Assembly: GCA_001950395.1 (NCBI GenBank)
Contig: BDLO01000001.1
Coordinates: 843,979-907,978 of the forward strand
Origin: Coriobacteriaceae bacterium EMTCatB1
Lineage (GTDB): Bacteria > Actinomycetota > Coriobacteriia > Anaerosomatales > Anaerosomataceae
DNA: 64,000 nucleotides
Direction of reading: 5' to 3'
This document shows, one piece after another, positions 52,171-64,000 of the stretch. Made by a program: the position numbers and the translations under genes. Every line of letters starts with the position of its first letter. Position 1 is the stretch's first letter. The notes beneath the pieces are model-generated. The model saw nothing but the letters and a program-made list of their open reading frames with translations, was not told the DNA's origin and made no database searches.

Positions 52171-53459
52171 CAGCGACGACCTCCTTCAGCCGCGCCGCGC
52201 AAGGAATCCAACTCAGACCGGTACAGCTCGTGGAAGCGCGGAACGTACCAGTCGGCCCACACCGACCCGTCTTCGCGACGATACACGGTGAGCTCTCGTG
52301 GAACGGAAGCGTACAGCAAGACACCTCCTGCGAACACGACGAAGAAGCTAGAAAAGAGCAGACCGTATCCCCTGCTCTGGTCGATCGTCAGGACGGCCCA
52401 CCGCCGCACGCCGTCGAGCGAGACGCTCCACGCCCCGATCTTCGCTGCGTCGCCTTCAGTGAGCGATGCCTCGCCGATCTGCCGCCCCTGGCGCAGGAGG
52501 CGCAGCGTCAGCCGCGGCTGGGAGCCCGCAGGCTCGTCTACGTCGCACCGCGCCTTGAGCACGCTCGCATCCGGGAGCGCGCGCTCGACGTACGACGGCT
52601 CCGTCGGGGACTGCGGCTGCGGAAGGTCGAGCCTGATCTTCTGCGCGTCGTGTGGCTGGCTCAGCGTCACGAAGAACGCGTATCCCACGCGGCCTTCTTG
52701 GTGGTAGCGGGTCTGTTCGAAGGTGCGCGGCGAGTTCGTCGTGATCTCCAGGCGCGCCGCCTTCGGCCCGTCCCCGATCACGTACACGCCCGTGTACCGC
52801 CTGGGCTCCCCTGTGTCCCAGAAGCGCGCGATGACCCGCTCGAGCGTGATCGTCTTCGGCACGGCTGCAGCTGGCCCGAGCGGTCCGTGCGAGGGATCCG
52901 CAAGCGCTGAGCCTTTCGGCAAAGTCTGGCCTTCTACGAGCGTCAGCAGACCGACGCTCCGCGTGAGCGTGACTATGACCACCCCGAGCCCCGCGAGCAG
53001 CAGACCCGCGTGCAGGATCGTGGCTCCGAGCAGCCCCCACGGATGCTTGACGAAGCGGCTCTCAGCCGGGCTCCGTCGCACGCGCACATAGCCACGTCGC
53101 TTCACCTCGCGCGAAAGCGCGCCCGCATCGACCACCTCGAATCGCTCGCCCGCTGGGCCGCGCGGCCGCACGAGCCGACGGATGTCACGCCGCGTGATGC
53201 GGAGCGTAGCGCACACGATCTGGAGCAGCGCCACGCAGACGAGCGCCCGGAAGCTCCAGGTGGTGACGACGTGGTCGAGACCGAGCGTCGAGACAGCGTC
53301 AACAGTTGAGGCGCCCGCCTGCGGTTGCTGCGGCACGAGCGCGATCACGAGACCGTACGCCACGGCAAGCGCAGAAACGCTCAGAACCGCGCGGCGAGAG
53401 GTCAGCAAGGCGATCATGGAGCGCTGCGATGGACGCATCGAAACGCGGCTGACACGCAT
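52170..53459 (-). CDS. resB: Cytochrome c biogenesis protein ResB/Ccs1
   Basis: 429 residues. N-terminal helix (AVLSVSALAVAYGLVIALVP), a further helix (RALVCVALLQIVCATL), a conserved WGLLGATILHAGLLLAGLGVVIV stretch and a large extracytoplasmic beta domain, ending in a membrane helix (YGLLFSSFFVVFAGGVLLYASVP). ATG at 53459 shares a base with the cytochrome stop (TGATG). A GTG three bases earlier is possible. With CcsA it forms the system II cytochrome c synthetase. Confidence 0.92.
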   Translation of the reverse strand: MRVSRVSMRPSQRSMIALLTSRRAVLSVSALAVAYGLVIALVPQQPQAGASTVDAVSTLGLDHVVTTWSFRALVCVALLQIVCATLRITRRDIRRLVRPRGPAGERFEVVDAGALSREVKRRGYVRVRRSPAESRFVKHPWGLLGATILHAGLLLAGLGVVIVTLTRSVGLLTLVEGQTLPKGSALADPSHGPLGPAAAVPKTITLERVIARFWDTGEPRRYTGVYVIGDGPKAARLEITTNSPRTFEQTRYHQEGRVGYAFFVTLSQPHDAQKIRLDLPQPQSPTEPSYVERALPDASVLKARCDVDEPAGSQPRLTLRLLRQGRQIGEASLTEGDAAKIGAWSVSLDGVRRWAVLTIDQSRGYGLLFSSFFVVFAGGVLLYASVPRELTVYRREDGSVWADWYVPRFHELYRSELDSLRGAAEGGRR

Positions 53460-56400
53460 CACCAGTTGCCTGATGCTGATGAGTTGCTATGCCCCCTGCA
53501 ACCGCTCGCAGTCGTCACAAAGCAGTTGCTCCGGTTGTTCCCATCACCACCGATATAGGCCGACACGAAGAGATTGCTCTTCACGTTGTTGTACGCGTAC
53601 CGCGAAGGCATGTTGCTGTTCGCGTCGCCTATCAAGCCCTGAAGACCACCGCCATGCGGAACCACGATGTGGCACCGGTAACACGGCTGACTCTGGTGGT
53701 TGTTGTTCCGGTGCACTGATGGACCGGTAGTGATGCTGACTTGGTGGCACCTCGCACAGAGCAATCCTGTCTTGTCCCCTGCAAGCGTGTACGGGGTGCC
53801 GCTCGAGTTCAGCGGCCAGCGTCCCTTCAAGACATGTTTGACGACGGATCCGTGCGGACCGGCCGCCGCACCGCTGAAGTCGCCGTGGCAGTCGGAGCAC
53901 GTCATCGTCTGGTTCGCCACATTCTGCCACTGAGCAAGCATCCAGCCACTGTACGTAGCCGCACTGTTGGTCGTTTTCGCGAATACCGGGTGATACGACG
54001 CGTTGTTGGGGTTGAACTCGAGCGCGACGTCTGTCCAGGCATCAGCGCCCGTGCCGCCCCAGCTCGAAAGCGCAGCGTTCGTGCCGGTCGTGTGGCACTT
54101 GAGGCAGATCTGGTACTCGTAGGTCACGCTGGTGACGAGCGAGTACCTGCTCGCAGTCGGGGTCGTCCAAGCCGAGAGCCCGCTCGTGTCGATCGCGTAA
54201 CCCCACACGCTGGCCAGCGCCGGTCCGGCGACGTTGCCGTTCCCGCCGCCGATCGTGTGGGTCCCCCGCTTGGCAGCGTGGGGGTTGTGGCAGTCCGCGC
54301 ACTCGATGTGCTTGCTTTGCGCCTGGCCGATGTACGCAGTCGTCTCGTCGGACGGGGACGCCTTGTGCTTCGCCGAGTAGCTCTGGACCTTATGGCCGTA
54401 CGATAGCTGCATCTGCCCGTACACCGCGACGGAGGTCGCGCTCATCGACGCGACGCCGTAACGGTCGTACTGGTACGACGCGGTCCACGTCGCACCCTGG
54501 CCGTCTGAGGCCCTGCTGTGGCACTTGTAGCAGAACTGCTCCTCGTACGGATTGCTTATCGCGCCGCCAAGAGAAGCCAGGATGCGAGCCTCCGCGCTCA
54601 GGTGCACGCCGAACGTCGCAAGGGTTCCGAGGGGGCTCCCCTCATCCTGGTACTGCTTTTGCATCGTGTCGTTGTGACACTTGACGCAATCCGCCCTGAA
54701 AGGCGAGGCCGTGAAGGTCGCCGTGGCGGTGTAGCGGTGCTGAGAAGCAGCGTACCCCGTCGCGTCGACGCTCACCGTGTACGTGGTGCCGCTGGATTTC
54801 TGGTCAGCGTTCTGCTTCACGCGAGCCACGGAATGACATGACACGCAGACGCCCGGAGCGCCGGCCGTTCCCGGAGCGATGAAGTCTGTGTTCGTGGCCG
54901 TGCCGCTTGCCGAGGCAACCGTCGTCCGCAGGTTCGCACCCTTGTTGCTGTTGAACAGATCGTGATCCACATGGCACGAGACGCAGTACACGTCGGTCAC
55001 AGTCGTCGGATACTGAGAGCTGGCGGCAGGCGCGAAATCGCCCTCGTACGTCGTCGAACCGAGCACGTGGTGGTAGTACGAGAGGCGACTTGCGCCGCCC
55101 GTCACCGAACCGATGCTGTCTTCCATCGGCTGGTATTCGCTGTGACAGCCGTAACACGACACCTTGCCGGAAGAGATCCCCATCGTCGGGGCATGGACAT
55201 TCGGAGATCCCGCTCCCGAATAAGTGCCTCCGTGACAGTCGTAGCAACTCTTGGTCGACGAGGAGGAGTGAGGATCGCCGCCCCCGAGCGCCTTCAGACG
55301 AAGGTAGTTCTGGCCCAGCGAGTACCCGCTCGGGCGCGTCTGCCCTGGAAGCAGCGTGCCATCACGCCTGAGCCCATAAAACAGCATGTCGGACGTCACG
55401 CTCACGTACGAGGACGCACCGGAGTCCCACACCTTGCCGTCTGACGAAGCGTGGCAGGCGAAGCAGAGTTTCCGCACTTGCGTAGCCGCCGTCACGACTT
55501 GACCGCTGCTGCTTACCGTGGCGTCGAGACTGCCGCCAAGAGTGTCTGCGATGAGCATCTTGTTGCCGCGTGTCGACCCGTGCGGGTTGTGGCACTCGTA
55601 ACACGGCAGCGGCGAGTTCACGGGCAAGACGGCCCCGCCAGTCTTGATCCGGTGGCCATTCGTCGCTGAGGCATCGTCCGGTGACTTCGTCGCGTACTGC
55701 TTGATGTCCACCGCGCCAGAGGCGACCCACGAGCCGCCCCCGTGGCACGCGAAGCACGCCGCCGCGTAGTCGCCGTTCGTGCGATCCAACGCCGCCGTCT
55801 CTGTCGCCGGCGGGCTGTACGTCGCTAGCAGGCTGTCGTATCTGCTCGGTCCGCGATGGCCGGCATGGCACCACAAGCAGTCACCGCGTCCTCGCACGAC
55901 CGTCGCAGTAGCCACCAGCGGATCGGGCACGGTGCCGGTGGGTATGCGCGAGTGCGCGTTTGCAGTCGAGCTCGTGTAGACGCTCTGCCCTGGGAACGTT
56001 CCGTACACGGGGTACTGCGTCTCGTCACGGGAGGGCGAAGACATGGACGGATACGCCGTGCTGGTCGTCGAGCACCACCAGTCCTGCGAGTCGTTGTGAC
56101 ACGCAAAACACCACGTATTGTCATTGGTGGCTGAAACGACGTGGGTCCCCGACGAGGTCACGATGGACGGCCTCGGCAGCCGCGGCGCCGTGGTGTAATC
56201 GCGATGCGGAGAGTGGCAGCTGTCGCAGTCGTGCGTCAGGTCTCGAGGAGACGCAGCGCTCGTTGCGAGCTGATGCCCGCTCGCCAAGCTGAAGGAGTTC
56301 GCTGCTCCTGTCTGGACATTCGTCCTCGCGCCCGCCTGCGCAGAGCCGCTGTGGCACGAGTAGCAGAATCCAGTGACTCCAACGTCGGAGTCCGGCGTCG

Positions 56401-56611
56401 ACGTGGTAAGAAGGAGAGCCGAGGGAGCAGCATGCGGCTTGTGACACATCCCGCAAGCGCTGGTACCAGAAGAAAAACCGACGTGAGGCGCGTCCTGCGC
56501 CATCGCATGAGGAGCAGGGCGTAGCGCCACTAAAGAGACGAAAAGGGCGACCGTTACGACACCGCGCACCGGCCTGGCGCTCCGCCTCTCTGTTTGAGGA
56601 CGATTTCCCAA
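53459..56611 (-). CDS. Exported 19-haem c-type cytochrome
   Basis: 1050 residues with a signal peptide (RGVVTVALFVSLVAL, cleavage near AMAQD) and 19 CXXCH motifs, starting at residues 53, 83, 129, 168, 245, 286, 337, 383, 456, 486, 543, 589, 642, 694, 771, 836, 905, 952 and 977. Many are followed by Pro-His or another distal His. The C terminus has Cys1030 and Cys1038 in an atypical CX7CXGH. Extracytoplasmic, likely cell-surface electron carrier. TTG start with AGGGC site. A strong extended -10 (TGCTATAAT) lies upstream. Overlaps resB. Its family is the doubled-CXXCH multihaem group. Confidence 0.93.
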   Translation of the reverse strand: MGNRPQTERRSARPVRGVVTVALFVSLVALRPAPHAMAQDAPHVGFSSGTSACGMCHKPHAAPSALLLTTSTPDSDVGVTGFCYSCHSGSAQAGARTNVQTGAANSFSLASGHQLATSAASPRDLTHDCDSCHSPHRDYTTAPRLPRPSIVTSSGTHVVSATNDNTWCFACHNDSQDWWCSTTSTAYPSMSSPSRDETQYPVYGTFPGQSVYTSSTANAHSRIPTGTVPDPLVATATVVRGRGDCLWCHAGHRGPSRYDSLLATYSPPATETAALDRTNGDYAAACFACHGGGSWVASGAVDIKQYATKSPDDASATNGHRIKTGGAVLPVNSPLPCYECHNPHGSTRGNKMLIADTLGGSLDATVSSSGQVVTAATQVRKLCFACHASSDGKVWDSGASSYVSVTSDMLFYGLRRDGTLLPGQTRPSGYSLGQNYLRLKALGGGDPHSSSSTKSCYDCHGGTYSGAGSPNVHAPTMGISSGKVSCYGCHSEYQPMEDSIGSVTGGASRLSYYHHVLGSTTYEGDFAPAASSQYPTTVTDVYCVSCHVDHDLFNSNKGANLRTTVASASGTATNTDFIAPGTAGAPGVCVSCHSVARVKQNADQKSSGTTYTVSVDATGYAASQHRYTATATFTASPFRADCVKCHNDTMQKQYQDEGSPLGTLATFGVHLSAEARILASLGGAISNPYEEQFCYKCHSRASDGQGATWTASYQYDRYGVASMSATSVAVYGQMQLSYGHKVQSYSAKHKASPSDETTAYIGQAQSKHIECADCHNPHAAKRGTHTIGGGNGNVAGPALASVWGYAIDTSGLSAWTTPTASRYSLVTSVTYEYQICLKCHTTGTNAALSSWGGTGADAWTDVALEFNPNNASYHPVFAKTTNSAATYSGWMLAQWQNVANQTMTCSDCHGDFSGAAAGPHGSVVKHVLKGRWPLNSSGTPYTLAGDKTGLLCARCHQVSITTGPSVHRNNNHQSQPCYRCHIVVPHGGGLQGLIGDANSNMPSRYAYNNVKSNLFVSAYIGGDGNNRSNCFVTTASGCRGHSNSSASGNW

Positions 56612-56701: not shown

Positions 56702-57316
56702 TCACGCGCGCGGGAAGAACGGGTTTATCCTGCGCTCGCGGCCGATGGTCGTGTCGGGGCCGTGGCCCGGGTGGACGAGGGTGTCGTCAGGCAAGCCAGC
56801 CAGCCGGGCGATCGATCTCGCCATTGCCTTTGGGTCTCCGCCTTCAAAGTCGGTGCGACCGACGCTCCCCGAGAACAGCGTGTCGCCGCTGAACAGGTGG
56901 CCGCTTCCGAGAAGGCAGATCGAGCCCGGCGTGTGCCCCGGCGTGTGCAGGACGGCGAGCTCGACGCCACCCGCCTTCACGACGTCGCCGTCTGCAAGCA
57001 GCCGATCAGGAGCCGGAGCTTCCACGTCGAAGCCGAAGGCCCGGCCGCCGTTGCGATCCGCGGAGGAGATGGCGCCGGCATCCGCCTCGTGCACCGCAAC
57101 CGGCGCTCCCGTTTGCGCCGCGAGTGCAGCGACGGCGCCGATGTGGTCGAAGTGCCCGTGCGTCAGCACGATCGCCTCGACGGAGCTCTCCCCGACGATC
57201 TGGAGCAGGCGCACCGGCTCGCCTGCCGGATCGACGACCACCAGACGCTGCCCGTCGCCGGACACGAACCAGCAGTTCGTCTCAAGGGGACCCACGATGA
57301 GGCGCTCCACGATCAC
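56702..57316 (-). CDS. Metallo-beta-lactamase fold hydrolase (GloB/YcbL-like)
   Basis: 204 residues. Metal site THGHFDHIG (HXHXDH), plus HTPGHTPGS, GDTLFSGSVGR and the terminal LVHPGHGPDT that supplies the remaining ligands. Members hydrolyse glutathione or other thioesters, and the substrate is unknown here. GTG start overlaps the relA/spoT stop by four bases (GTGA), with GAGGAG six bases upstream. The neighbour pair relA-MBL is common. Confidence 0.9.
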   Translation of the reverse strand: MIVERLIVGPLETNCWFVSGDGQRLVVVDPAGEPVRLLQIVGESSVEAIVLTHGHFDHIGAVAALAAQTGAPVAVHEADAGAISSADRNGGRAFGFDVEAPAPDRLLADGDVVKAGGVELAVLHTPGHTPGSICLLGSGHLFSGDTLFSGSVGRTDFEGGDPKAMARSIARLAGLPDDTLVHPGHGPDTTIGRERRINPFFPRA

Positions 57317-59526
57317 GTCCGGCTCCTCTTGCGCCCGTTCGGCTCCGGCAGGCTCCGCCGCGCGTCGAAGACGCCGCCGACCGACCGCACCGAGCCCAGC
57401 ACCTTCGTGAGCTGGTCCATGCTGCCGAGCTCGAGCAAGAACCGCATGGTGGCGATGCCCTGGCGGTCGGTGGAGACCGACGCTGAAAGCACGTTCACGC
57501 CCGCGTCGGCGAGCGCGATTGACACATCTTGCAACAGGCGTGTGCGGTCGAGCGCCTCGATGATGATCTCGACCTGGTAGACGCTTGCAACACCCGTGTC
57601 CCACTCCACCGCGATGATCCGCTCGGGCTGCGCCAGGAGCTCGCGCGCGTTCGGGCAGTCCTTGCGGTGCACCGACACGCCACGCCCTCGCGTCACGAAG
57701 CCGACGATCTCGTCTCCCGGCACCGGATTGCAACACCGCGCGAGCCGGATGAGCAGGTCGTCGACCCCCGCGACGCGCACGCCCGCGGTCGAGCGCCTGC
57801 GCTTGGCCCGCGGCGGTGTCATCGGCTTGTCGAGCGGCAGCCCCGCCGGCTTCTCCTCTGCCGGCAGCTGGACGACCCCCTCGCGCGCGAGGTGCTTGAT
57901 GAGCTTGGTGGCGACCTGCCTCGGGCTCTGCTTGCCAGCGCCGATCTGCGCGAGCAAGTCGTCCGCGCTCGCGAGGTTCATCTCCTTGGCGACGGCTTCG
58001 AGCGCCTTGGCCGCGCCGTGGCTGCCCAGCCCGAGGCCGTGCTTGCGGAGCGCTTTGAGGAGCTCCTCCCGGCCGGCCTGCAGGTCGTCAGTGCGCGCGA
58101 CCTTGCTGAAGTACGCCTTGATCTTCGAGCGCGCAGACGACGTCTTGACGATCGCGAGCCAATCGCGCGAGGGGCTGGCGCTCTTCGAGGTGAGGATCTC
58201 GACGCGGTCGCCCATCTGCAGCTCGTACGACAGCGGCACGATGCTGCCGTTGACCTTCGCTCCGACGCAGTGATGGCCGACCTCGGTGTGGATGGCGTAC
58301 GCGAAGTCGATCGGCGTCGATCCGCGGCGAAGCGAGATCACGTCGCCTTTCGGCGTGAAGACGAAGACCTCGTCCTCGAACAGGTCGATCTTGAGCGCCT
58401 CCATGAACTCACGCGGGTCCTTGAGCTCGGTCTGCCACTCGAGCATCTGCCGCAGCCACGCGAGCCGCTCGTCGAACGACTCGTCCTTGCCGCCTTCCTT
58501 GTAGCGCCAGTGCGCCGCGATGCCGTACTCGGCCGTGCGGTGCATCTCCTCGGTGCGGATCTGGATCTCGAGCGGCCGGCCCGCAGGCCCGATGACCGTG
58601 GTGTGCAGCGACTGGTACATGTTGAACTTGGGCATGGCCACGTAGTCTTTGAAGCGCCCCGGGACCGGCTTCCAGATGGAGTGCACCGTGCCGAGCGCGC
58701 CGTAGCAGTCCTTCACGGAGCCCACGATGACGCGCAGCGCGATGAGGTCGTAGATCTCCGAGAAGTCCTTCCCGCGCTGCGTCATCTTCTGGTAGATGCT
58801 GTAGAGGTGCTTCGGCCGTCCCGAGATCTCGGACTCGATGCCGACCGCCTCGAGCTCGCTTCTCAGCTGCTGGATGACCTGCTCGAGGTACGCCTCGCGC
58901 GCCGCACGGCTCTCCGCCACCATGCGCTGGATCTGGTTGAACTTCTTCGGCTCCAAGTAGAAGAACGCCAGGTCCTCGAGCTCCCACTTGATCTGCGAGA
59001 TCCCGAGGCGATGCGCGAGCGGCGCGTAGATCTCCATCGTCTCGATGGCTTTCTCGCGCTGCTTCTCTGGCGGAAGCGCCGAGAGCGTGCGCATGTTGTG
59101 CAGGCGGTCGGCGAGCTTGATCAAGATGACGCGGATGTCCTTGGCCATCGCGACCAGCATCTTGCGGAGGTTCTGCGACTGGGCTTCTGCGACCGTCGAG
59201 TACTTGATGCGCCCCAGCTTGGTGACGCCGTCGACGAGGGAGGCGACCTCTGAACCGAACCGCGAACGGATCTCTGAGAGCTTCACCCCGCTGTCTTCGA
59301 CCACGTCGTGCAGGAGCGCCGCCTGCAGCGTGATGGTGTCGAGGTGGAGCTCCGCGAGGATCTTCGTGACTTCGAGCGGGTGCGAGATGTACTCCTCGCC
59401 GGAGCGACGCTGTTGTCCCGCGTGCTTCTCGAGCGCGAACTCGTAGGCAGCCCGCAGCCCTGCCAGGTCTGCACCTGGGCTGTACGACTGAACGATCGCC
59501 TCGATGGACTCGATGGTCGCCGTCAC
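57313..59526 (-). CDS. rel: Bifunctional (p)ppGpp synthetase/hydrolase (RelA/SpoT, Rel type)
   Basis: 737 residues. HD hydrolase with GEEYISHPLEVTKIL and LLHDVVEDSG. Synthetase with IYDLIALRVIV and RFKDYVAMPKFNMYQSLHTTVIG. TGS domain with FTPKGDVISLRRGSTPIDFAYAIHT, a helical region, then a zinc-finger-like CCNPVPGD and an ACT domain at the C terminus (ALDRTRLLQDVSIAL). All hydrolase residues (HDxxED) are present, so it is likely bifunctional. GTG start after GAGGA. A TATACT -10 lies 60 bases upstream. Confidence 0.95.
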   Translation of the reverse strand: MTATIESIEAIVQSYSPGADLAGLRAAYEFALEKHAGQQRRSGEEYISHPLEVTKILAELHLDTITLQAALLHDVVEDSGVKLSEIRSRFGSEVASLVDGVTKLGRIKYSTVAEAQSQNLRKMLVAMAKDIRVILIKLADRLHNMRTLSALPPEKQREKAIETMEIYAPLAHRLGISQIKWELEDLAFFYLEPKKFNQIQRMVAESRAAREAYLEQVIQQLRSELEAVGIESEISGRPKHLYSIYQKMTQRGKDFSEIYDLIALRVIVGSVKDCYGALGTVHSIWKPVPGRFKDYVAMPKFNMYQSLHTTVIGPAGRPLEIQIRTEEMHRTAEYGIAAHWRYKEGGKDESFDERLAWLRQMLEWQTELKDPREFMEALKIDLFEDEVFVFTPKGDVISLRRGSTPIDFAYAIHTEVGHHCVGAKVNGSIVPLSYELQMGDRVEILTSKSASPSRDWLAIVKTSSARSKIKAYFSKVARTDDLQAGREELLKALRKHGLGLGSHGAAKALEAVAKEMNLASADDLLAQIGAGKQSPRQVATKLIKHLAREGVVQLPAEEKPAGLPLDKPMTPPRAKRRRSTAGVRVAGVDDLLIRLARCCNPVPGDEIVGFVTRGRGVSVHRKDCPNARELLAQPERIIAVEWDTGVASVYQVEIIIEALDRTRLLQDVSIALADAGVNVLSASVSTDRQGIATMRFLLELGSMDQLTKVLGSVRSVGGVFDARRSLPEPNGRKRSRT

Positions 59527-59584
59527 GCCTGTTCCTCGTCGCGCATCTGCACGCTCGCAGCCGTCGCGGGCGAGCGGTAGCCGT

Positions 59585-59590
59585 AGTATA
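59585..59590 (-). promoter_or_regulatory. Possible -10 box upstream of rel
   Basis: TATACT on the minus strand in the 100-base gap after the recJ fusion gene. No good -35 match (CCCAAG at the expected spacing). The same hexamer occurs upstream of the carboxylase gene at 9481. Confidence 0.35.
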
Positions 59591-59626
59591 CGCGCTGGAA
59601 GAGCGGACTTGGGTGGACGCGGGCGC

Positions 59627-62600
59627 CTATCCTGCACGCGACGGCAGGATCGGGCGGTTGACGCGTGCGAGCAGCTCGTCTGCGCTGGCCGTGAGCACCC
59701 ACTGCTTGAACTGAGCGAACTCCGCCACCGCACGCTTGCCTTCCGCGTAGCGGACCGAGCTGTCGAGGTCGACCTTCCCGCCGCCGGCGTCCAGAAGCTC
59801 GATGCGGCGATACGCGGCGATCCCGCTCGAGCGCACGAGCCCGAGCTCGCGGAACACCGCGAGCGCCGTCGAGACGCCAGACTCGTCGAGCCGCGAGGTC
59901 GGACGCTTTCGCTTCGCCGCCTCGGCGAGCTCCGCGTTCGTGGCCTCGATGCCGCCATCTTCCGCGCCGCGCGCCATGTCGCGGAGGGCGAGGTACAGCG
60001 CAGCGAGGTCGTCGCGCTCGGGAGCGAGCGAGCCCACGATGGACTCGTTGATCCGCGCATCGCGCTCACAGAAGAGCAGGTGGATGGATGCCGGCGCCCC
60101 GTCTCGGCCCGCACGGCCGCACAGCTGATTGAACTCCACCGAGGAGAAGGGCACGTGGTACAGCACCACACGGCGTACGTCGGGGACGTTCACGCCCTCG
60201 CCGAACGCGCTCGTCGCGACGACCGTCCGCACCGAGCCCTCGCGGAACGCCTCTTCCACGGCGTGGCGCATCGACCGGCCCAGGCCGCCGTGGTAGAACG
60301 CAACGGCGTCACGCACCCTCGGCGCCGTGCGGCGCAGGTGCGCGGCGAGGCGCACCGCCTCCTCGCGGCTGTTCACGTACACGACGCTCTTCTCGCCGTC
60401 TGCGAGAAGCGAGGCGAGCGCGGTGCGCTTGTCGGGCGCTCCCCGGCGGTCGTCGATCTTAAGGTTGCTTCGCACCGTCGGATCCAACACTCTGCGCGTC
60501 ACGCCGAGCGCCTGCTCGATCGCATCCGCGACGTCGTCGTCAGCGGTCGCCGTGGTGGCGAGCACCTCGCGCACGCCGGCCGCGTCGAACGCCTCCGCCA
60601 GCCGCGCGTACGCAGGCCGATGCCCGCGCCGGGCCGCTCCCACGTGATGTGCTTCGTCGACGACCGCGAATCCGACGCGGCCCGTTGCGCCGAAGCGCCC
60701 CGCATGCCGCTCGAAGAACTCCGGCGTCGTCAGCACGACGTCGATGCAGCCGTCCGCGAGCGCCTGAAACACCTCGTCGCGCTCGCTCGGGCTCGACTCG
60801 CCCGTCAGCACCGCTGCGCGGCAGCCGGCGCGCGCGAGCGTGCCCGCGAGGTGGTACGCCTGATCAGCGACGAGCGACCGCAGGGGGTAGATGAACGCCG
60901 ACGCCTCGCTGCGCTCGATCGCCCGCCTGACTGCGTGCGCGTGGAACACGAGCGACTTCCCACGGCCCGTCGCCATGACGAGCAGAGTCCGCTCCCCCGC
61001 CTCAAGCGCCGCGAGCGCCTCTCGCTGCGCCTCGTGCAGCGTCACGCCCGGGGCGATCGCCTCGATGACGCCTTCGAGCAGCCGCTCGCCGGGAAGCTTC
61101 GCGATGCGGTCGCGCGCATCCGCCGCCTCGGACGCTTCCTTTGCGCCCTCGTCCTCTGCGTCCGCCTTTCGCACGAGCACGTTCACGCCCAGCGCGCCGT
61201 CACGGGCATCGCCCGTGACCTCGCTCACCACGACCTCGTAGACCGCACCCGCGTCGATGTGGGGGGCGAGCGCCGCGGCGAGCCGGCGGTTGAAGTACCC
61301 CACGCGCGCTCCGCTGGGGTCGTGCAGCGCGCACGCGAACGGGTCGTGCGGGTTGTCCGGCTCGCGCACGATCCGAAGCGGCGTGCCCGGCTCCAGCTTC
61401 GCGACAACCTCCTGCCGCCCCTCGAAGGTCACTCCCGCGAGCTTGGTGTGGAACGCGGGCTCCTCGGCGATCGTCGCGTACTCGCTCCTGTCGAGCGACG
61501 CCTCGGCGCCGTCGAAGAGCGCCTCCACGAGCTCGCGCGCAGGAGCTTCGGGGGACGGGGCGTGCGGGTGCACTCCCCTGACGAGCAGCCGCACACGGTC
61601 GCGACCTCGCCACGACGAGCGCTCCAGCTCTGCGACGACGTCGGCGGCGGTCTCGTGCGCGACGAGCGAGTCGGGATCCGGGCAGCGGAACATGATCGCG
61701 TCCGCGCGCGCGATGCCGTCGTGGACTTCCATCATCAGGTGCCGCCCGTCGGAGCCCACGAGCCGGCAGCGGTCCAGGAACACGCCTGGGAGCGCGAACG
61801 TCGGCCGCGGATTCCCGAACCCGAAGGGCTCGAGCAGCTGGATCTCAGCCGCCGCCTCGATCCCGACGTCAGAGAGGCGCGCAACCGCGTCGACCACGGC
61901 GACGCGCGGCCCAAGACGAGCCACGTCCGCCGCAAGCGCGTCAGCGATCGCCGCGCGGAACGCGTCGATGCTCGCGGACGGCAGCGCGAAGCCGACTGCC
62001 GCTTCGTGACCCCCGAACCGCGTGAGCAACGCCTCCGTGCGGGCGAGCACGCCGTACAAGTCGACGCCCGGCACTGAACGGCCCGAGCCCACGGCCTCGT
62101 CGCCCTCGACGCACAGCACCAGCGCCGGCAGCCCGAACCGCTCCACGAGGCGCGACGCGACGATGCCGCGGACGCCCTCGTGCCAGCCCTCCCCCGCCAC
62201 GACGATCACGGGCGGCTGCGCCCCGCCGTCTGCCTCGAGGCTCGCCAGCGCCGCCTCGAAGACCTCGGCTTCCACCGACTGCCTCACGCGATTGTGCTCG
62301 TCGAGCACGCGCGCCAGCTCCTCGGCTTCGCTCTCGTCGGTCGTCATCAGCAAGCGCAACGCAAGCACCGGGTCGGCCATACGGCCGGCAGCGTTCAGCC
62401 GCGGCGCGAGACCGAACGCCACGCGCTCAGCCGTAAGCTCGGCGAGATCGATCCCGGCGACGGCCGCGAGCGCACGGATGCCGGGCCGGTCCGTCGACCG
62501 CAGCGCGGCGATGCCGGCCGCGACGAGCGCGCGGTTCGGGCCCGTGAGCGGCACGACGTCCGCGACCGTCCCGATCGCCGCGAGGTCGGCGAAGCGCAGC

Positions 62601-63253
62601 CACCCGTCGCCGTCTCCGAGCCGCTCCCCCACCGCTCGAGCGAGCGCGAGCGCGACGCCAGCGCCGGAAAGCTCCGGACCCTCCGCCACGAGCTTCGGGT
62701 CCGCGACCGGAACGCCGTCGGGCACGAGCGCTCCCGGCTCGTGGTGGTCGGTAACCACGACGTCGACGCCGTGCTTCTGCAACACACGCACTTCTGCCGC
62801 CGACGAGATGCCGCAATCGACCGTGACCACGAGGTCGGGGCTCGCCGCCAGCACGCGTTCGAGCACGGCCTCGGTGAGGCCGTACCCCTCGCGGAAGCGG
62901 TGCGGGACGATCGGCGTCGCGTCGGCGCCGAGCCCCTCAAGGGCCAGAGAGAGCAGCGCCGCCGCAGACACGCCGTCCAAGTCGAAGTCGCCGAACACGA
63001 CGACGCGCTCGCTCTCGCGCACCGCGCGCGCGACGCGCTCAGCCGCTTCCGCAAGCCCGGGGATCGCCTGCTCATCAGGCCAGTCGCGCACGAGGGAGGG
63101 CGTGAGAAAGCGGCGGGCCTCGCTTTCTGCGGCCATCCCTCGGGCAAGGAGGATCGATGCCGTCAGCCGCGAGACGCCGAGGGCATCGGAGAGCCGCTCC
63201 GCATCCGCAGCCTCGACCTCACGCCGAAGACGCCATCCGCTGGTACCGCTCAT
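59627..63253 (-). CDS. recJ: RecJ exonuclease - HIRAN - RecQ-like helicase fusion
   Basis: 1208 residues, about twice a normal RecJ. Residues 1-560: RecJ core, with GDFDLDG at 88-94, VTVDCGIS near 145, DHH motif TDHHEPG at 168-174, PRLNAAGRM at 284-292, GGHEAAVGF at 414-422 and an OB region. Residues ~600-695: HIRAN domain (FHTKLAGVTFEGR, EPDNPHDPFACAL, VGYFNRRLA). Residues ~715-1055: superfamily 2 helicase with MATGRGKS (760-767), VVDEAHH (864-870), ATTATA (899-904), VVATSAFGEGVN and NQLCGRAGRDG (motif VI). No four-Cys RecQ zinc domain is seen. The C terminus (DLDSSVRYAEGKRAV, FKQWVL) resembles the tail of Firmicutes RecJ. ATG with GGAG site. Confidence 0.93.
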   Translation of the reverse strand: MSGTSGWRLRREVEAADAERLSDALGVSRLTASILLARGMAAESEARRFLTPSLVRDWPDEQAIPGLAEAAERVARAVRESERVVVFGDFDLDGVSAAALLSLALEGLGADATPIVPHRFREGYGLTEAVLERVLAASPDLVVTVDCGISSAAEVRVLQKHGVDVVVTDHHEPGALVPDGVPVADPKLVAEGPELSGAGVALALARAVGERLGDGDGWLRFADLAAIGTVADVVPLTGPNRALVAAGIAALRSTDRPGIRALAAVAGIDLAELTAERVAFGLAPRLNAAGRMADPVLALRLLMTTDESEAEELARVLDEHNRVRQSVEAEVFEAALASLEADGGAQPPVIVVAGEGWHEGVRGIVASRLVERFGLPALVLCVEGDEAVGSGRSVPGVDLYGVLARTEALLTRFGGHEAAVGFALPSASIDAFRAAIADALAADVARLGPRVAVVDAVARLSDVGIEAAAEIQLLEPFGFGNPRPTFALPGVFLDRCRLVGSDGRHLMMEVHDGIARADAIMFRCPDPDSLVAHETAADVVAELERSSWRGRDRVRLLVRGVHPHAPSPEAPARELVEALFDGAEASLDRSEYATIAEEPAFHTKLAGVTFEGRQEVVAKLEPGTPLRIVREPDNPHDPFACALHDPSGARVGYFNRRLAAALAPHIDAGAVYEVVVSEVTGDARDGALGVNVLVRKADAEDEGAKEASEAADARDRIAKLPGERLLEGVIEAIAPGVTLHEAQREALAALEAGERTLLVMATGRGKSLVFHAHAVRRAIERSEASAFIYPLRSLVADQAYHLAGTLARAGCRAAVLTGESSPSERDEVFQALADGCIDVVLTTPEFFERHAGRFGATGRVGFAVVDEAHHVGAARRGHRPAYARLAEAFDAAGVREVLATTATADDDVADAIEQALGVTRRVLDPTVRSNLKIDDRRGAPDKRTALASLLADGEKSVVYVNSREEAVRLAAHLRRTAPRVRDAVAFYHGGLGRSMRHAVEEAFREGSVRTVVATSAFGEGVNVPDVRRVVLYHVPFSSVEFNQLCGRAGRDGAPASIHLLFCERDARINESIVGSLAPERDDLAALYLALRDMARGAEDGGIEATNAELAEAAKRKRPTSRLDESGVSTALAVFRELGLVRSSGIAAYRRIELLDAGGGKVDLDSSVRYAEGKRAVAEFAQFKQWVLTASADELLARVNRPILPSRAG

Positions 63254-63329: not shown

Positions 63330-64000
63330 CTACGAAGCCTTCGCCGGCTTGCCCGCTTGCTTCTTGCGGAGCGCCTGGTAGCGCGGCTCGGTCTCCTTCC
63401 ACACTGAGTAGACGGTGCTTGCCACGCCCACCGAGGAGTACGCGCCGGAGATCATGCCGACGAGCAGCGCGAACGCGAAGTCCTTGAGCGTCTCGCCGCC
63501 GAACAGGAACAGCATCGTCACCGGGATGATCGACGTCAGGCTCGTGTTGATCCAGCGGGCGAGCACCTGGTTGATGGAGTCGTTCGCCGCCTCGGTGAAC
63601 GTCTTCTTCGTGAGCGTCCGCGTGTTCTCCCGGATGCGGTGGAACACGACGATGGTGTCGTAGAGCGAGTATCCGAGGATCGTCAGCAGCGCCGCGATGG
63701 TGTTCGGCGTCACCTCGCGTCCTAAGATCGCGTAGATGCCGAGCACGATGAGCGCGTCGTGCACGAGCGCAAGCACCGCAGTCAATGACATCTTATACTC
63801 GAAGCGCACCGAGATGTAGAGCAGGATCGCGAAGATCGAGATCGCAAGCGCCGTGAGCGCAGAGCGCGTGACGCTGCGGCCCCACCCCGGACCGATGGTC
63901 GTGACGGTGACTTCTTGCTCCGGAAGCTTCAGCTCGTCGACGACCTTCAAGAACGCCTCTTCCGCTTTCTGCGGATCCGATTCAGACGTCCGCACGAGGA
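63330..64000 (-). CDS. secF: Protein translocase subunit SecF (C-terminal part; 5' end outside the window)
   Basis: About 223 residues visible. Ends of the periplasmic domain (DPQKAEEAFLKVV), then the RND-type membrane bundle: SVRFEYKMSLTAVLALVHDALIVLGIYAI, TILGYSLYDTIVVFHRIREN, and NTSLTSIIPVTMLFLFGGETLKDFAFALLVGMISGAYSSV. Works with SecD to use proton motive force in protein export. The frame is open at the window edge, so the start is not seen. The secF-recJ-rel order is typical. Confidence 0.95.
   Translation of the reverse strand, partial: LVRTSESDPQKAEEAFLKVVDELKLPEQEVTVTTIGPGWGRSVTRSALTALAISIFAILLYISVRFEYKMSLTAVLALVHDALIVLGIYAILGREVTPNTIAALLTILGYSLYDTIVVFHRIRENTRTLTKKTFTEAANDSINQVLARWINTSLTSIIPVTMLFLFGGETLKDFAFALLVGMISGAYSSVGVASTVYSVWKETEPRYQALRKKQAGKPAKAS

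Follow-up and report, generated by a model that had tools for sequence, protein, structure and literature searches.

The window, that is the whole stretch of 64,000 nucleotides analysed here, belongs to the genome of Coriobacteriaceae bacterium EMTCatB1, a single contig of 1.84 Mb. It carries on its minus strand a complete ORF (59627..63253) coding for a protein of 1208 residues in which RecJ, a HIRAN domain, a helicase and a C-terminal winged-helix-like domain (WH) are fused, as deduced from the ORF itself, its Pfam and NCBIfam domains and homologous ORFs in the class; all features of this gene lie on the minus strand. The RecJ core is made of a DHH nuclease domain (residues 83-229, 62567..63007; PF01368, 65.2 bits for a cut-off of 28.1), a DHHA1 domain (residues 348-441, 61931..62212; PF02272, 43.9 bits for a cut-off of 25.9) and the RecJ OB fold (residues 454-559, 61577..61894; PF17768, 78.1 bits for a cut-off of 27). 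With these three domains above their cut-offs, the protein also exceeded the curated threshold of the RecJ model TIGR00644 (438.3 versus 396.9 bits). The HIRAN domain (residues 603-682, 61208..61447; PF08797, 41.5 bits for a cut-off of 24.7) is followed by the two motor domains of the helicase. RecA1 (residues 741-910, 60524..61033; PF00270, 73.5 bits, the DEAD match covering residues 741-910) contains, according to our motif table, motif I ATGRGKS (60953-60973) and motif II VDEAHH (60644-60661), and RecA2 (residues 930-1066, 60056..60466; PF00271, 82.4 bits, the Helicase_C match covering residues 942-1052) contains motif VI NQLCGRAGRDG (60098-60130). The two-RecA fold of this helicase, together with its motifs I, II, III, V and VI, places it in SF2. 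We named it RecQ-like only, because its scores against the NCBIfam models recQ_fam TIGR00614 (162.7 bits) and TIGR01389 (160.9 bits) were below the curated RecQ cut-offs (219.8 and 640.2, respectively). The WH occupies residues about 1070-1206 (59636..60046) and is homologous to the C-terminal half of PF10141; the final 140 residues of the protein had no match in Pfam.

A RelA/SpoT-type gene identified with Pfam (57313..59547, minus strand, with a provisional start), the sign of a recJ-relA locus that Bacillota also have, lies directly downstream of the fusion, and the C-terminal part of SecF (63330..63995, minus strand; PF02355, 199.8 bits) is its upstream neighbour. In Bacillota, apt often sits between recJ and relA; the gap between the two genes of the window (59547-59627) has no apt gene. 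Elsewhere in the window, an ORF of 1050 amino acids with many CxxCH motifs and a signal peptide-like start (53459-56611, minus strand) apparently encodes a multihaem c-type cytochrome. Scanning with a RecJ-core consensus yielded 80 named loci, in which the length of the tail beyond the core fell in steps. The relA gene was downstream of recJ in 69 of these 80 loci, among intact, intermediate and decayed forms, and we therefore consider them as one orthologous locus; secF was upstream in 18 of the 80, many loci being cut by contig ends.

The fusion is widespread in the class of the window, Coriobacteriia, with matches in 145 of 149 genomes, and corresponded, where contigs permitted, to a single ORF of about 1100-1400 amino acids, sometimes devoid of HIRAN. 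The C-terminal tail was kept together with the fusion throughout the class, and in a wider sample of the phylum the fusion was confined to Coriobacteriia and one further family. HIRAN was detected in 33 of 48 intact fusion sequences. Many coriobacterial loci (L047-L054, L061-L071 and others) had no HIRAN beside an intact motor, and this domain was therefore gained or lost independently of the motor.

The original prediction proposed that the end of this protein (59627-60130, minus strand, residues 1042-1208 of the ORF) resembles the C-terminus of Firmicutes RecJ, based on four strings occurring in the same order. All four are indeed present in order between residues 1057 and 1187: IHLLFCERD (residues 1057-1065, 60059-60085), VFRELGLVRSSGI (residues 1133-1145, 59819-59857), VDLDSSVRYAEG (residues 1161-1172, 59738-59773) and FKQWVL (residues 1182-1187, 59693-59710), all on the minus strand. 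The counterparts of the first three in Bacilli RecJ tails are IYAHF, VFFDLKFV and KKDLSESRTYQ, and that of FKQWVL is LKTWF, with a less secure alignment. The IHLLF segment is the end of RecA2 and the remaining strings fall in the WH. Pfam PF10141 (gathering threshold 26.4 bits) did not match the window protein or its genome at E <= 10, and this model also misses L090, an intact fusion from Clostridia. We thus did not file the window tail as a member of PF10141, and homology rests on profile-profile comparisons and intermediates. We compared with hhalign the C-termini of 11 Bacilli RecJ, PF10141 being confirmed in L073 and L100, with the Coriobacteriia tail. The Bacilli profile aligned with RecA2 plus WH over 138 colinear columns (Prob 96.9, P 1.7e-10) with a score of 75.4, the controls (reversed profiles, 20 column shuffles per target and RecA1, HIRAN, OB and DHH decoys) all remaining at or below 20.3, which puts the likeness far beyond chance. 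The alignment with the WH alone reached P 9e-10 for the Bacilli tails and P 2.2e-14 for the short tails of Oscillospirales. RecA2 by itself, compared with no more than these 11 Bacilli rows, stayed below its shuffles (19.7 versus 20.3).

Bacillota exhibited all stages between the two ends. Among 149 sampled genomes, 141 contained RecJ, and 13 of these 141 encoded the intact fusion in ORFs of 1197-1255 amino acids, L090, a Clostridia MAG, having for instance a full RecJ-HIRAN-helicase of 1211 amino acids; many others had RecJ tails of intermediate length. These forms can be arranged in a series in which the catalytic helicase motifs are lost, followed by RecA1, then by a part of RecA2 (Bacilli, PF10141), leaving finally the WH alone (Oscillospirales). 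Motifs I, II, III, V and VI (e.g., ATGRGKS, VDEAHH, GRAGRDG) were conserved across the intact forms and absent in 18 forms still showing a match to RecA1 or to the long tail. In a set of 75 intermediates, none of which was placed inside the clade that the Bacilli form in the core tree, Pfam detected PF10141 in 23 (best 1.4e-10) and Helicase_C in 22 (best 3.1e-8). Both models matched overlapping residues in L166 and L172, Helicase_C only at 0.01 and 0.0065, and DEAD, Helicase_C and PF10141 followed each other along a single tail in L176; L169 retained a HIRAN match together with weak helicase matches. The tail of L089 matched RecA2 plus WH of the intact Bacillota fusion L090 at 2.3e-19 in a single frame. 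L089 comes from a MAG labelled Armatimonadetes, a label that may be wrong; its RecJ groups with that of Desulfoscipio (L082) and relA is downstream. Finally, a profile of the 75 decayed tails retrieved from the PDB both SF2 RecA2 domains (Hera 5e-14, RecQ 4TMU 2e-10, WRN about 1e-9) and residues 565-733 of the Staphylococcus aureus RecJ 8Y30 (2.7e-7). HHpred-type and structural PDB comparisons of PF10141 with the tail, in which the absence of any match had been named beforehand as counting against the prediction, thus gave the opposite outcome, the profile alignments being significant for both halves of PF10141.

The two halves of the Bacilli tail could be traced separately. Once trimmed of the WH, the N-terminal half of 31 Bacilli tails aligned end-to-end with RecA2 of the intact fusions (columns 4-99 on 2-136; Prob 95.1, P 3.3e-8, score 45.9), the maximum of 60 shuffles being 20.4 and the decoys scoring 9-13.5, and with RecA2 of 34 intermediates it reached 52.8 for a shuffle maximum of 11.1. 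HMMs built from intact forms detected RecA2 in 35 of 76 intermediates, and the WH in almost every tail. The WH model recovered in a first pass 22 of 31 Bacilli tails and 35 of 39 short Oscillospirales tails, without any reversed tail, and after one iteration 31/31 Bacilli tails. The RecA2 model without intermediates detected none of the 31 Bacilli; when intermediates were added it detected 20 of 31, mostly over the last third of the domain, immediately before the WH. Reversed tails gave no match with these HMMs, and RecJ cores at most three stray matches in later iterations. As the WH is the most widespread part (all 31 Bacilli and all 39 short tails) and many RecJ carry it without any motor, one could suppose that it is an old RecJ appendage and that the helicase was inserted later between the OB fold and the WH in some lineages. 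We find this scenario quite improbable: the Bacilli have a remnant of RecA2 in the right register between OB and WH, and there are motor-dead forms with RecA1 and RecA2, and decayed motors must derive from working ones. In addition, the WH resembles the region following RecA2 in four stand-alone helicases of the DEDD-RecQ type (score 28.8 versus 12.5, P 6.1e-5), which suggests that it arrived together with the motor. Long stand-alone RecQ-like proteins (L265-L268, ORFs up to about 1600 amino acids) have an exonuclease-like part at their N-terminus and a winged-helix-like region after RecA2; this family is a possible source of the fused helicase.

Structural models were in line with decay from a fused helicase. 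The AlphaFold2 model of the Bacilli tail, built from Bacilli rows only (pLDDT 85.9), was validated by its match to residues 559-756 of the solved structure 8Y30 (Z 17.7). The model of the window helicase and WH (pLDDT 87.6) had a Z of about 34 to WRN and RecQ over 357-373 residues. The secondary structures of the two models, read from their two DSSP strings, pair in order. The RecA2 of the window (E233 H244 E258 H265 [E286 H295 E312] E330 H340 E357) corresponds to E5 H12 E27 H34 [missing] E67 H77 E91 in Bacilli, the missing piece being the central beta-alpha-beta of RecA2, and the WH (H382 E403 H408 H426 E442 E450 H469 H493) to H110 E125 H128 H143 E159 E165 H181 H201. A mixed WH profile also found residues 648-755 of PDB 8Y30 at 4.7e-21. 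In the fold search with the Bacilli model, generic winged helices at Z 7-8 dominated after 8Y30. WRN RecA2 entries had a Z of about 6.5-6.8 (6.8 over 150 residues, along the full length of the model), a level at which chance arrangements occur, and such matches may be taken as supportive only. The structural comparison suggested in the original prediction is thus consistent with RecA2 (WRN Z 6.8), with modest support. Winged helices are common, and Foldseek listed many unrelated ones, so that the likeness might in principle be due to chance or convergence among common winged-helix and Rossmann folds. We judge this exceedingly improbable, since the profile alignments of the sequences score far higher than shuffles and decoys, graded intermediates join both ends, these bridging sequences already contradicting chance, and both forms share the position in the gene and the locus.

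We are thus confident that PF10141 of Bacilli is composed of an eroded RecA2, without the central beta-alpha-beta and motifs V and VI, followed by the WH, that Oscillospirales have only retained the WH, and that the window gene is an intact form. In this explanation, homology, colinear order, loss of ATPase and helicase motifs and in-between stages were directly demonstrated, whereas the roles in resection and binding are those that we infer below. The view of the Firmicutes RecJ C-terminus as the shrunken remnant of a fused helicase is supported by the profile alignments of both PF10141 halves and by the intermediates, and can be refined to RecA2 plus winged helix, RecA1 and HIRAN having been lost. 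The window protein is not literally the "ancestor" of the prediction but an intact relative that has survived, and some Bacillota themselves still have intact fusions.

The distances between RecJ cores were correlated with those between helicases (r 0.79, permutation maximum 0.24), also in a subset of 20 sequences with two coriobacterial rows (r 0.815, permutation maximum 0.39), indicating from these sequence distances that the core and the helicase evolved together. In RecJ core trees, intact forms occupied 8-9 positions, some of them adjoining decayed forms (L145 with L166, support 95-96; L146 with L189), which favours an intact ancestor and repeated loss. An alternative is that intact recJ-helicase genes spread horizontally, for instance between Bacillota and Coriobacteriia, the scattered intact copies being transfers and the decay one or a few old events. 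Coriobacteriia RecJ cores were placed among Bacillota in the core trees, and a single clade of intact forms was not rejected by the AU test (p 0.109), which speaks for such transfers; nevertheless, the 8-9 positions of the intact forms, some next to decayed ones, and the retained relA synteny make us regard this alternative as rather unlikely, and even if true it would leave the PF10141 tail a decayed helicase. The fuller version of the repeated-loss reading is, in our opinion, evenly balanced: the RecJ from which those of Bacillota and Coriobacteriia descend may have been a one-chain nuclease-helicase resection engine with an end-binding HIRAN, whose motor died many times independently, the leftover RecA2-WH being kept in Bacillus and Staphylococcus for, e.g., binding of DNA or a partner.

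The intact fusion could work as a one-chain machine for end or gap resection, combining a 5'-3' ssDNA exonuclease, HIRAN, a RecQ-like SF2 helicase and the WH. The motor would travel 3'-5' along the 3'-ended strand, displacing the 5'-ended strand, which would be fed to the RecJ nuclease, while HIRAN would hold the DNA end and the WH would help to part the strands. For the HIRAN of HLTF, binding to the 3' ends of DNA has been reported (Kile 2015, as cited in PMC4666394), and in Escherichia coli, resection of blunt or 3'-tailed ends needs the 3'-5' helicase RecQ and RecJ (PMC4846377). The eroded Bacilli tail lacks anything needed for ATP hydrolysis, so that survival as a DNA- or partner-binding platform seems the most likely role. 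At E <= 1e-30, the window genome had no stand-alone RecQ-family helicase, the RecJ fusion being the sole RecQ-like match, and RecQ was above the cut-off in 85 of 149 Coriobacteriia genomes. In Bacillota, a separate RecQ was present in 6 of 13 genomes with an intact fusion versus 47 of 136 others, so that it is not more often lacking with the fusion. The idea that the fusion simply replaces RecQ was thus unsupported in this phylum, and motor loss does not simply track the presence of a separate RecQ.

We found in the open-licence literature no earlier description of the origin of PF10141, of a RecJ with HIRAN or of a RecJ-RecQ fusion. Our results account for the origin of a functionally unassigned domain that Bacillus and Staphylococcus carry in a core repair enzyme, with many intermediates showing the decay of a motor inside a housekeeping protein. 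The winged helix and the RecA2 remnant offer concrete residues to target in Bacillus subtilis RecJ, and the living intact forms of Coriobacteriia and some Bacillota are candidates for carrying out the RecQ plus RecJ reaction with one polypeptide.

Among known systems, PF10141, solved in S. aureus RecJ (8Y30, 559-756), resembles the window tail in both colinear halves, an eroded RecA2 then the WH, but unlike the window protein with its full motor and HIRAN it has no RecA1, no motifs V and VI and a shortened RecA2. RecQ, WRN and RECQL4 share the SF2 motor and the same motifs with the window helicase, whose model is at a Z of about 34 from WRN and RecQ; the window helicase differs from the RecQ family by its fusion to RecJ and its score under the recQ_fam cut-off. 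The WH of the window protein had no profile match with the Zn/RQC region in the tested Bacillota RecQ set, although the winged helices may still be structurally equivalent. The RecJ of E. coli, Thermus and Deinococcus have the same DHH-DHHA1-OB core as the window protein but no fused helicase. The Deinococcus-Thermus RecJ has a C-terminal domain of its own, reported to be without HHpred homologue (PMC4663267); it was not retrieved in our PDB search with the WH profile, in which only 8Y30 was significant. In E. coli, end resection is performed by separate RecQ and RecJ (Morimatsu and Kowalczykowski 2014, as cited in PMC4846377), that is by two proteins, whereas the fusion of the window is predicted to bring the same two activities to 3'-tailed or blunt ends in one chain.
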